DNA from: Acidimicrobiaceae bacterium
GTDB taxonomy: Bacteria > Actinomycetota > Acidimicrobiia > Acidimicrobiales > Aldehydirespiratoraceae
Direction of reading: 5' to 3'
Length of the DNA stretch: 57,732 nucleotides
Assembly: GCA_016845585.1 (NCBI GenBank)
Contig: JAERSO010000122.1
Coordinates: forward strand, 1-57,732
The position numbers were made by a program, and so were the translations under genes. Shown piece after piece: positions 23,703-25,977 of this stretch. Below the pieces are notes generated by a model that worked only from the letters and a program-made list of their open reading frames with translations, did not search any database and was not told the origin of the DNA. Each line of letters starts with the position of its first letter. Position 1 is the stretch's first letter.

Positions 23703-23885
23703 ATGTGCCGCAACATCACCCCCATGCGCGGGCTCGAGCCCATCGACACCGCCGAGGAGATCGAGGCCGCGGTTGCGATCATCACCGAAGCCACCACCGA
23801 CCTCATCGCGGCGCTCCCGCCGCGCAAGGTGCCGCCGAAAACGGAACCGCCGCTGCGGCGGCTAGCCCGACACGAAGTCGGGTGA
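23703..23885 (+). CDS. DUF2277-family protein, internally shortened
   Basis: A 60-residue protein with the signature start of DUF2277 (MCRNITPMRGLEP, TAEEIEAA) and the family's end region (ITEATTDLIAALPPRK, PPKTEPPLRR). Members I know are about 80-90 residues and have between these parts a conserved stretch including QYVRKxSG and KPS. That stretch, about 25 residues, is missing here and the frame is kept, so this looks like an in-frame deletion at the EAAV junction. The function of the family is unknown. The last 24 nt overlap the convergent selenoprotein gene; a CCCGAC/GTCGGG hairpin lies in the overlap. Confidence 0.7.
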   Translation: MCRNITPMRGLEPIDTAEEIEAAVAIITEATTDLIAALPPRKVPPKTEPPLRRLARHEVG

Positions 23886-24896
23886 GTTCCGCGCGGTGGA
23901 GAACTGATCGAGGCCGAGGTCGCCGGCGAAGCGGCGGGTCGGTCCGGCGAAGTCCTCGTCGAGCGGGATCCCGGAGGCGTCCGCGCCCAGGTTGAGCGAA
24001 CGGAAGATCGCGACCGTGAGCGAGGCCTCCATCACGCCATCGTCGCCAACGCCGGCCCGTAGGGCTTCGCGCGCGCCGGCCAGCGAGTCGTCGCGGCGCC
24101 AGGATGCCTCGGCGAACGCCGCTAGTTCGGCGCCATGACCGACGCCGGCATCGCCACCGTCGACGGCCTCGGCGAGTTGAACCTCGTCGTCGGTTGCGGC
24201 GCTGCTCGCACCGAGCAGCGTGACGTGAGCCGACGTTCAATAGAAGCACTCGTTGAGCGAACTGGTACGCGCCGCCAGGAGCTCGACCTGCGGACGAGTC
24301 AATGCCCGGTCGGACCACACCATTTCCCCGAACGCGTCGCGGCTGTACATCGACATGACGAGGCCTCGCCAGCGGAGGTGGTCCTCACCGGCCAGGCTGA
24401 GGGAGCGGGCGACGTTGGGGCCCCGGAAGGGTGTCGTCATCTGGATGTGTCCACCGGCGTCGCCCATACCGTCGGGACGCTTCTGAGAGGGTTCGCCGGG
24501 TTCGGCGGCCGGGAACGGCACGAGTTCGAGTCCCTGGGACACACAGAACTGATCGATCGTGATCACCTGGGCGACGAGGGCCGCCGTCTCGGCGTAGGTG
24601 GCATCACCGATCTCGTCTGCGATGTCGGTCACCAACGCTGCGTCGATGAGCGAGGCCTCGGTGGCGAAGATCGAGGCGAGTGCCACGAGCACGGAACCGC
24701 AGTCACCGCGCGCCGCCGCGAGCGTCTCGAGGCCACCGTTGCGATCCCAGACGGGCCGTGGCGTGGCGGATCGGGCGGCTTCGACGATCGACAGCCGCTC
24801 GAGACCCGTGAGCTGCCGGCTCGGCCGACCGATCCCGGCCCAGGCCGCGGTGGCGGCCTCGGCGACACCGCCTGGCAGGGTCAGTTCGCCGAACAC
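23862..24896 (-). CDS. AhpD-like (carboxymuconolactone decarboxylase family) selenoprotein with CxxU active site
   Basis: One frame runs from GTG 24896 to TAG 23862 with a single in-frame TGA at 24237-24239, codon 220. Before it: LTRPQVELLAARTSS then LNECFY. After it: TSAHVTLLGAS. This is the AhpD motif C-x-x-C-x-x-x-H with the second Cys replaced by TGA, so Cys217 and Sec220 would form the redox pair with the His four residues on. The following 124 codons contain the rest of the AhpD fold (AELAAFAEASWRRD, LRAGVGDDGVMEA, LTVAIFRSLNLGADA), so the TGA is not a natural C-terminus. A SECIS-like hairpin starts 16 nt after the TGA. Total 344 residues, with a second CMD-like N-terminal half. The start overlaps the Fur-type regulator gene by 16 nt, pointing to peroxide or hydroperoxide reduction. 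Confidence 0.88.
23866..23882. terminator. Hairpin in the convergent gene overlap
   Basis: CCCGAC, a 5-nt loop, then GTCGGG, inside the 24-nt overlap of the DUF2277 and selenoprotein genes. No T-tract on either side; at most a weak bidirectional terminator. Confidence 0.35.
24200..24220 (-). promoter_or_regulatory. Bacterial SECIS-like stem-loop for Sec insertion
   Basis: On the transcript the TGA is followed by 16 nt, then CGCTGCTC, loop GGTGC, then GAGCAGCG: a perfect 8-bp stem with a 5-nt loop. Loop distance from the UGA is 24 nt. A stem just downstream of UGA, a small loop and G in the first loop positions are the known features of bacterial SECIS elements; the E. coli fdhF loop also begins GGU. 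It sits within the coding frame, as in bacteria. Confidence 0.8.
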
Positions 24897-25294
24897 GTCT
24901 CGCAGGTGGCGTGGTAGACGACCTCGGCACGACGCACGGTCATGCCGTGGGCCTCGCCGACCGGGAGCTCCGGCGGGGTGTGGCCGAGTTGAACGTCGTG
25001 GATCACACCGCAGGAGTCGCAGACAAGATGATTGTGTGGCGAGGTCGTGGGGTCGTAGCGTTTCGAACGGCCCTCGATGCCGAGCTCGAGGATCTCCCCC
25101 ATCGAGGTGAGCTCGTGAAGGGTGCTGTAGACCGTGGCGCGGCTGACCTCGGGAAGAATGTCGACCGCTCGGGCGTGGACTTCATCGGCGGTCAGATGCA
25201 CGTTCATGCCGTCGAGCGCCTCGGCCACGGCGCGACGCTGCGCGGTGAGGCGATAGCCGCGCGAGCGGAGTCGGTCGAGTAGGGACGTGTGCAC
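24881..25294 (-). CDS. Fur-family regulator (PerR/FurA-type)
   Basis: 137 residues. The winged-helix half contains YRLTAQRRAVAEALDGM, HLTADEVHARAVDILP and VSRATVYSTLHELTSMGEI. The C-terminal half has the metal region (PHNHLVCDSCGVIHDV) with one C-x2-C pair and a second pair near the end (YHATCETCSAN), the structural zinc site of Fur/PerR/Zur proteins. It precedes and overlaps the AhpD-like selenoprotein gene, which favours a peroxide-sensing role like PerR or FurA rather than iron or zinc uptake control. The start is GTG 25294, 8 nt after a TACAGT hexamer embedded in an inverted repeat, suggesting autoregulation. Confidence 0.9.
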   Translation of the reverse strand: MHTSLLDRLRSRGYRLTAQRRAVAEALDGMNVHLTADEVHARAVDILPEVSRATVYSTLHELTSMGEILELGIEGRSKRYDPTTSPHNHLVCDSCGVIHDVQLGHTPPELPVGEAHGMTVRRAEVVYHATCETCSAN

Positions 25295-25299
25295 CGGGA

Positions 25300-25316
25300 G
25301 TGACTGTACCAGTCAC
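25300..25316. promoter_or_regulatory. Inverted repeat over the fur-selenoprotein promoter
   Basis: GTGACTG-TAC-CAGTCAC, perfect 7-bp arms. On the minus strand it contains TACAGT (25303-25308), a -10 hexamer 8 nt before GTG 25294. A dimeric repressor bound here would block the operon promoter. Binding protein not proven. Confidence 0.55.
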
Positions 25317-25355
25317 CCGCCCTGGAGGGAATCCGTTCCTGAATTCGGCCCGACT

Positions 25356-25384
25356 TTGGACTAAGTCCAGAAAGGCGATAAAGT
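25356..25384 (+). promoter_or_regulatory. Promoter of the nitrobindin-like gene
   Basis: TTGGAC (25356-25361), 17-nt spacer, TAAAGT (25379-25384), then 8 nt to ATG 25393. The best two-part promoter in the window together with that of dmpK; the transcript would be leaderless or nearly so. Confidence 0.6.
25357..25369. promoter_or_regulatory. Fur/PerR-type box at the nitrobindin promoter
   Basis: TGGACT-A-AGTCCA, perfect 6-1-6 inverted repeat, followed by GAAAGG. The stretch resembles the FurA operator of the mycobacterial furA-katG promoter (TTGACTnATTCCAGAAAAGG as I recall it). It overlaps the -35 hexamer TTGGAC (25356-25361). Confidence 0.6.
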
Positions 25385-25392
25385 CCGTACTT

Positions 25393-25977
25393 ATGAGCAC
25401 GCAAACAGACCACTTCGGCCCTCTCGCCGCCCTGGCGGGCGTCTGGCACGGCACCGGCGGCAACGACTTCTCGTTCCACCACGCCGACAACGAGTCCGGC
25501 GACACGACCTACCGCGAGGAGATCACCTTCAAGCCCTTCGGCCCGGTCGACAACGGCAGCCAGAGCCTGTACGGCCTCGACTACAAGATGGCCGCCTGGC
25601 GCGAGGGCGAGGAGGATCCATTCCACACCGAGGTCGGCTACTGGCTGTGGTGCAGCAACCTCAAGCACGTCATGCGTGGCTTCGTGATCCCTCGCGGATC
25701 GGCCATTCTCGCCGGCGGCGAGGCTGAGCCCGACGCCACGTCGTTCACCCTGCGCGCCGAGGCCGACAGCGACGAATACGGCATCACCCAGAACACGTAC
25801 CTGTTGAACAACGCCCGGTGCACCGCCTACGAGCTCAACCTCTCGGTCGACGGCGACACCCTCACCTACGACGAGACCTCGACCCTGGCCATGAAGGAGT
25901 TCGACGAACCCTTCCAGCACACCGACCGCAACGTGCTCCAGCGGGTCGAGACCTTCGAGATCCCACCGCCGGCCTGA
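25393..25977 (+). CDS. Nitrobindin-like heme-binding beta-barrel (FABP-like) protein
   Basis: 194 residues. The family start LAALAGVWHGTGGNDF corresponds to the LaGxWxGxG motif of nitrobindins, and the C-terminal FQHTDRNVLQRV carries the conserved His in HTDxNxLxR that should ligate heme. The strand-rich middle has WLWCSNLKHVMRGFVIPRG. Nitrobindins bind ferric heme and isomerise or scavenge peroxynitrite. It is divergent from the Fur-type regulator and shares its intergenic region, which holds two inverted repeats. ATG 25393 is used; a longer frame upstream crosses the promoter. Confidence 0.8.
   Translation: MSTQTDHFGPLAALAGVWHGTGGNDFSFHHADNESGDTTYREEITFKPFGPVDNGSQSLYGLDYKMAAWREGEEDPFHTEVGYWLWCSNLKHVMRGFVIPRGSAILAGGEAEPDATSFTLRAEADSDEYGITQNTYLLNNARCTAYELNLSVDGDTLTYDETSTLAMKEFDEPFQHTDRNVLQRVETFEIPPPA

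Follow-up and report, generated by a model that had tools for sequence, protein, structure and literature searches.

The window analysed here is a 57,732-nucleotide stretch of contig JAERSO010000122.1 from an Acidimicrobiaceae bacterium (assembly GCA_016845585.1), in which a putative selenoprotein gene was studied. On the minus strand, a frame running from 24896 to 23862 comprises 345 codons including the stop codon TAG (23862-23864) and contains a single TGA at codon 220 (24237-24239), predicted to encode selenocysteine (Sec). The residues around it read E205-x11-C217-F-Y-(TGA220)-T-S-A-H224, which corresponds to an active-site motif E205-x11-C217-F-Y219-U220-x3-H224 (24225-24284, minus strand), and 124 codons follow. 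A reading made beforehand from the letters alone, here called the sequence-only reading, had taken the frame for an AhpD-like selenoprotein with a selenocysteine insertion sequence (SECIS) hairpin; the single TGA, the motif, the following codons, the TAG and the hairpin were all found exactly at the positions it had given. It had also anticipated that standard annotation would cut the gene at the TGA, and indeed the standard gene call P0002 (24237-24896, minus strand) has 219 residues, compared with 344 for the read-through frame. The frame starts with GTG at 24896 and overlaps by 16 nt with the end of a fur-family regulator gene. Since an equal overlap recurs in two relatives (L063 and L064), this start is plausible, although not proven.

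The frame continues through the TGA under coding constraint. When codons 221-341 of the window gene were compared with two 79%-identical relatives, differences at codon positions 1/2/3 numbered 10/14/62 and 8/11/49, and the changed codons after the TGA comprised 53 silent and 19 replacing ones in the first comparison and 39 and 17 in the second. The Pfam domain CMD (PF02627; residues 188-262, 24111-24335 on the minus strand) spans the TGA and was reached only by read-through, with 29 bits at a cut-off of 23, whereas neither half alone matched any Pfam family. A scan of GTDB contigs resulted in 157 confirmed loci, the best 80 of which were aligned with the window gene. In all 81 sequences a TGA occupied the Sec column, which aligns with the second Cys of AhpD-type enzymes as the sequence-only reading had claimed, and no further in-frame stop was observed within the matched range. 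The E-x11-C-x2-C/U-x3-H positions were invariant or almost so in 50 sequences. Relatives ending at codon 219 would have spoken for a genuine stop; the relatives carry the TGA and continue past it.

In addition, 61 genomes were searched one by one, namely the genome of the window (G000; 4.67 Mb, 176 contigs) and 60 others, of which related ones are non-independent cases. Among 42 match rows, 37 had a TGA at the CxxU position (35 CF[YF]U, one CPFU in L033 and one CSTU in L058), four short relatives (L034-L036, L057) had Cys at the Sec position and a long homologue (L032) had Gly. Two TGAs each were present in genes of G010 and G017, but a double selenoprotein was rejected, as the second TGA sits where other homologues end and was read as an ordinary stop. 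Among 198 genomes sampled from the class, 19 had genes scoring over the NF041238 cut-off, 24 in total, each with exactly one TGA; two of these pass only with neighbouring pieces counted, and three belong to the genome of the window. Judged by these sequence comparisons, the arrangement around the TGA is beyond chance.

The genome of the window also encodes the selenocysteine machinery on which the sequence-only reading depends. The tRNA-Sec scored 64 bits (cut-off 47) and was called tRNA-SeC with anticodon tca by ARAGORN; selA (387 bits) adjoins selB (272.5 bits) at C48:53709-55911, and selD (355 bits, contig C147) has one in-frame TGA itself, reading GAGUGCK. All four were above their family cut-offs. 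Among the 61 genomes, CF[YF]U genes were identified in 23, with selB over the cut-off in all 23 and selA in 22; in the remaining one (G036, 81% complete) a selA fragment was found that starts from base 2 of a contig. In 12 genomes selA had no match at all, and no CF[YF]U gene was found in these. With the machinery present and relatives continuing past codon 219 under coding constraint, the interpretation as an AhpD-like selenoprotein is supported.

A predicted bacterial SECIS hairpin, with the sequence CGCUGCUC-GGUGC-GAGCAGCG (24220-24200, minus strand), begins 16 nt past the TGA and consists of an 8-bp stem and a 5-nt loop. A stem-loop shortly downstream of the TGA whose small apical loop contains a G is what is looked for in a bacterial selenoprotein gene, and it was found here. 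In a set of 83 sequences, the 81 aligned ones and two paralogues from the same genome, the position of the stem-loop was fixed and 90.2% of the cells paired, compared to 20.9-58.3% in slid versions. Double changes were observed in 22 cells versus 5.7 in shuffles, and the covariation score was 0.244 compared to at most 0.161 in slid versions; neither value was reached in any of 500 shuffles. The loop-closing pair, which links the third positions of two codons, was C-G in 74 sequences and U-A in nine, without a mismatch. By record title the U-A cases fall into three groups: five Acidimicrobiaceae/Acidimicrobiales (L077, L078, L079, L081, L084), one other Acidimicrobiales (L097) and three Gammaproteobacteria (L112, L123, L130). 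Constraint was also visible at silent sites. Ser at U+11 was encoded by AGC or AGT in 81/81 sequences, versus 621/1677 Ser codons in the remainder of these genes, and Leu at U+8 by CTC or CTT in 80/80 (one sequence has Arg), versus 1009/2300 elsewhere. The second loop base was G in 81/81. Support for the predicted hairpin is comparative.

The read-through protein belongs to a family that is already known and named, of which it is a new member. It matched NF041238 (AhpD_rel_CFYUT; product name 'alkylhydroperoxidase-related (seleno)protein') with 220.9 bits over residues 11-333 at a cut-off of 175 and has the CFYU-T motif with TGA-encoded Sec, and the same model was matched at E ≤1e-3 by each of 23 aligned relatives. 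A table in a 2026 review lists NF041238 with CxxU and equates it with 'hypothetical protein 1' of the Sargasso Sea (PMC13188914), which in the 2005 selenoproteome was represented by four sequences with a CxxU motif (PMC1088965). The whole-length profile match, CFYU-T and Sec at the second position are common to both, and no essential difference from NF041238 was observed. The AhpD-like identity proposed by the sequence-only reading held for the PF02627 match and the motif, but the protein exceeds an AhpD domain by a predicted second, N-terminal lobe and its family already had a name. CxxU in an AhpD-type protein is shared with AhpD-like 1 (COG2128) and AhpD-like 2 (PF02627) of the Global Ocean Sampling selenoproteins, whose family assignments, as given in PMC2398784, are different. 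In open PMC literature nothing was found under CFYUT or on selenoprotein with Ilumatobacter, and the matches for selenoprotein with Acidimicrobi were off topic by title and abstract start.

By record title, the best 80 loci related to the window gene derive mostly from Acidimicrobiales and other Acidimicrobiia, and also from Myxococcota, Acidobacteria, Alpha- and Gammaproteobacteria and Chloroflexi; of its closest named relatives, L064 is titled Acidimicrobiales and L063 Actinomycetota, by which the window would most likely derive from an Acidimicrobiales bacterium. One member (L134) lies on a contig of a metagenome-assembled genome titled Bordetella parapertussis, a title that is possibly misassigned. 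Besides this gene, the genome of the window holds NF041238 genes at two other loci, both with a single in-frame TGA: L037 (C116:35302-36270, 319.6 bits) and L052 (C132:100284-101144, 230.6 bits), the latter reading CFYU-L instead of CFYU-T while still exceeding the cut-off. Neither the 81 aligned sequences nor the 24 genes scoring above the NF041238 cut-off included a Cys form. Such forms could have been found in the GTDB scan, because one of its two patterns has Cys at the Sec position and the other omits that position. Almost all selenoproteins are described as having Cys homologues (PMC9312934). According to its description, the Sargasso Sea method discarded frames with fewer than two Cys homologues. 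The table of that study gives the values 4, 7, 0, 5 for hypothetical protein 1, of which 7 and 5 are taken here as Cys homologues (PMC1088965). The idea that Sec is near-obligatory is weakened, because that study required and seemingly counts Cys homologues for this protein.

The structure model predicts two AhpD-like lobes, a C-terminal one with the redox motif (about residues 146-323, 23928-24461, minus strand) and an N-terminal one without a CxxU motif (about residues 1-150, 24447-24896, minus strand), the latter being made up of the ∼145 N-terminal residues that the protein has in addition to its AhpD domain. Two fused AhpD-like lobes are also found in Sestrin. In human Sestrin2 (5t0n, 5dj4), however, the redox motif lies in the N-terminal Sesn-A and the second redox residue is missing, whereas here the motif (residues 205-224) lies in the C-terminal lobe and has Sec at that position. 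AhpD and peroxidase-related CMD proteins (6k40, 2prr, 2oyo, 3c1l; PF02627, TIGR01926) are single-domain proteins with Cys for Sec, in contrast to the fused form predicted here, and the TIGR01926 cut-off was missed (32.1 of 81.8 bits). Sestrin membership by sequence was rejected: a search of the genome of the window with the Sestrin profile PF04636 at E ≤10 gave one match only, elsewhere (C140), and the profile was absent from the families of 50 family members at E ≤1. Sestrin was not in the best 50 of 132 Foldseek matches and appeared only in a second look with VIA-align, while the N-terminal lobe alone gave no good Foldseek match. A pairing of an N-lobe helix containing E103 and D115 with E205 and C217 of the C-lobe was dropped, since profile comparison sets this helix against residues 256-314. 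In open PMC literature, nothing was found joining Sestrin with bacterial, selenoprotein and alkylhydroperoxidase together.

The spacing of E205, C217, Y219, U220 and H224 is that of Glu74, Cys86, Tyr88, Cys89 and His93 in YP_296737.1 (2prr), as given in PMC4674687. The same source describes Cys125, Tyr127 and His132 of Sestrin2 as required for the reduction of cumene hydroperoxide, with H2O2 reduction undetectable. Because of this spacing and these residue requirements, an organic-hydroperoxide reductase with a Sec-Cys pair is favoured, and we consider it probable that the gene encodes a 344-residue NF041238 selenoprotein whose Sec220 and Cys217 would reduce organic hydroperoxides. For Sec insertion in vivo, catalysis, substrate and electron donor, we infer the following course. 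SelB with Sec-tRNA would bind the hairpin 16 nt past the UGA and insert Sec, and the chain would fold into two AhpD-like lobes, with the redox motif retained by the C-terminal lobe only. Glu205, Tyr219 and His224 may serve as proton relay, while the selenolate of Sec220 would attack a hydrophobic hydroperoxide (lipid or alkyl) at its O-O bond. Cys217 would resolve the selenenic acid as a selenenylsulfide, which a cellular dithiol could then reduce.

The overlapping fur-family gene (24881-25294, minus strand) had a PerR-like model as its best NCBIfam match, at 77.5 of the 200 bits of the PerR cut-off. Since this Fur/PerR-like regulator gene precedes and overlaps the selenoprotein gene both in the window and in two close relatives, the two may plausibly be co-expressed in response to peroxide or metal. 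Divergent from the regulator gene, a THAP4-like haem-binding domain protein is encoded at 25300-25977 (plus strand); it is peroxynitrite-isomerase-like, below the cut-off. Elsewhere the neighbours vary by lineage. Taking the longest frame on either side of each locus gave 71 upstream and 74 downstream frames, of which 40 and 32 on the same strand were scanned with Pfam; opposite-strand frames, seven farther same-strand upstream frames and one downstream frame were left out, and some scanned frames may not be real genes. The scan identified eight acyl-CoA dehydrogenases, four enoyl-CoA hydratases, eight cytochromes P450 and one AhpC. Acyl-CoA dehydrogenase 32-74 nt upstream and P450 5-39 nt downstream occurred together in eight loci titled Acidimicrobiaceae/Acidimicrobiales. 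Enoyl-CoA hydratase was located 27 nt (L066, by Pfam) and 24 nt (L067) upstream; L068 has a shorter piece, and another copy lies upstream of the paralogue L037 in the genome of the window. Such neighbours from lipid or CoA metabolism would fit a hydrophobic-peroxide substrate. In five Acidobacteria-type contigs (L085, L088, L089, L091, L094) an unassigned protein of ∼330-350 residues is encoded 3-50 nt upstream; the L085 copy, scanned by itself, had no Pfam match.

Several observations weigh against the selenoprotein peroxidase reading. A Fur-like neighbour was present in only 3 of 83 neighbourhoods (window, L063 and L064), some of which are ended by contig edges, and a general Fur/PerR partnership was rejected. 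The hairpin claimed by the sequence-only reading stood in its place, its G-containing loop, its covariation and its silent-site constraint, but not in its folding energy, which is ordinary for GC-rich sequence (z -0.77; 42/200 shuffles fold at least as well) and was dropped as evidence because it is not significant. Neither pairs in which both sides change (175/500 shuffles) nor further pair types (95/500) exceeded shuffles; a version slid by -1 had 21 double-change cells compared to 22, yet only 20.9% of its cells pair, and an Rfam scan of the window gave no family at threshold. In G003 no tRNA-Sec match over the cut-off was found in an assembly of ∼380 contigs. A divergent long homologue (L032, G032:C10:74889-75752) has Gly at the Sec position (CAHG) and is possibly a redox-dead paralogue. 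No activity report for the NF041238 family was found in the literature passages searched.

Could the TGA simply be a true stop, leaving a 219-residue product and a decayed or separate remainder? A collection of 5.8 billion proteins gave 33 matches in one search and the best 120 of 223 in another, and all 130 distinct proteins listed, one being the window's own, end at C-x-Y or C-x-F directly ahead of the TGA. Such a stop would split the active-site motif in two, and with coding constraint past the TGA, its presence in 81/81 sequences, a full Sec machinery and a CMD domain that appears only with the remainder, this explanation is highly improbable. Still less credence is given to the ideas that the TGA is an error of sequencing or that TGA is generally reassigned to a standard amino acid; no point in favour of either was found. 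Recurrence of this TGA across many genomes is strong evidence against an error, and TGA functions as a stop in the lineage, since the fur-like gene and many of the homologues end with it.

More weight, though still on the unlikely side, is given to a strict AhpD role, in which the selenoprotein would act as a disulfide reductase recycling peroxiredoxins, Ohr or OsmC instead of attacking peroxide. AhpD is described as restoring oxidised peroxidases, and the AhpD-like CgAhp as having only minimal intrinsic peroxidase activity (PMC10460364), whereas a measurable alkylhydroperoxidase turnover is given for M. tuberculosis AhpD (PMC4674687). An AhpC/TSA gene upstream would suit a recycling role, but it was found in just one of the 40 frames scanned there, with none among 25 of the 29 downstream families listed, and the relay Tyr and His required for the peroxidase activity of Sestrin2 are kept here. 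The high-activity peroxidase of the sequence-only reading may apply, with the disulfide-reductase role as a live rival. Within the peroxidase reading, the roles might also be exchanged, with Cys217 attacking the peroxide and Sec220 resolving, which we likewise regard as doubtful. In the Sestrin2 dyad the first residue, Cys125, is catalytic and the second is Leu (PMC4674687). Against this exchange, the Sec codon is kept in 81/81 sequences. A selenolate is also the stronger nucleophile.

Further AhpD-type frames with TGA were also observed. A single-domain frame in the genome of the window (L144, G000:C99:50724-51272) has TGA in its motif (HCHYUL-THH) and is likely a further selenoprotein. L058 (G003:C36:3877-4122, CSTU) and L033 (G045:C9:36683-37129, CPFU) have other hairpins and scored below the NF041238 cut-off. 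In the class sample, a short CMD-type match with one TGA was present in 32/32 matching genomes listed of genus g63 (family f35), each of at most ∼1.1 Mb; these small-genome bacteria seem to keep a Sec AhpD-like gene.

The database proteins listed above, where named mostly "hypothetical protein", all stop right ahead of Sec, and each therefore lacks half of the active site. Tentatively, NF041238 proteins may be regarded as bacterial mirror-image Sestrins: a fused AhpD duplication with selenium chemistry in the C-lobe, in which the N-lobe would have lost its motif and become a binding or sensing face, as Sesn-C in Sestrin2, with Sec near-obligatory in the two-lobed form, serving hydrophobic hydroperoxides that arise in lipid and CoA metabolism. 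Should the two-lobed fold be borne out, NF041238 would provide a bacterial, selenium-using counterpart for testing the division of labour between the Sestrin lobes.
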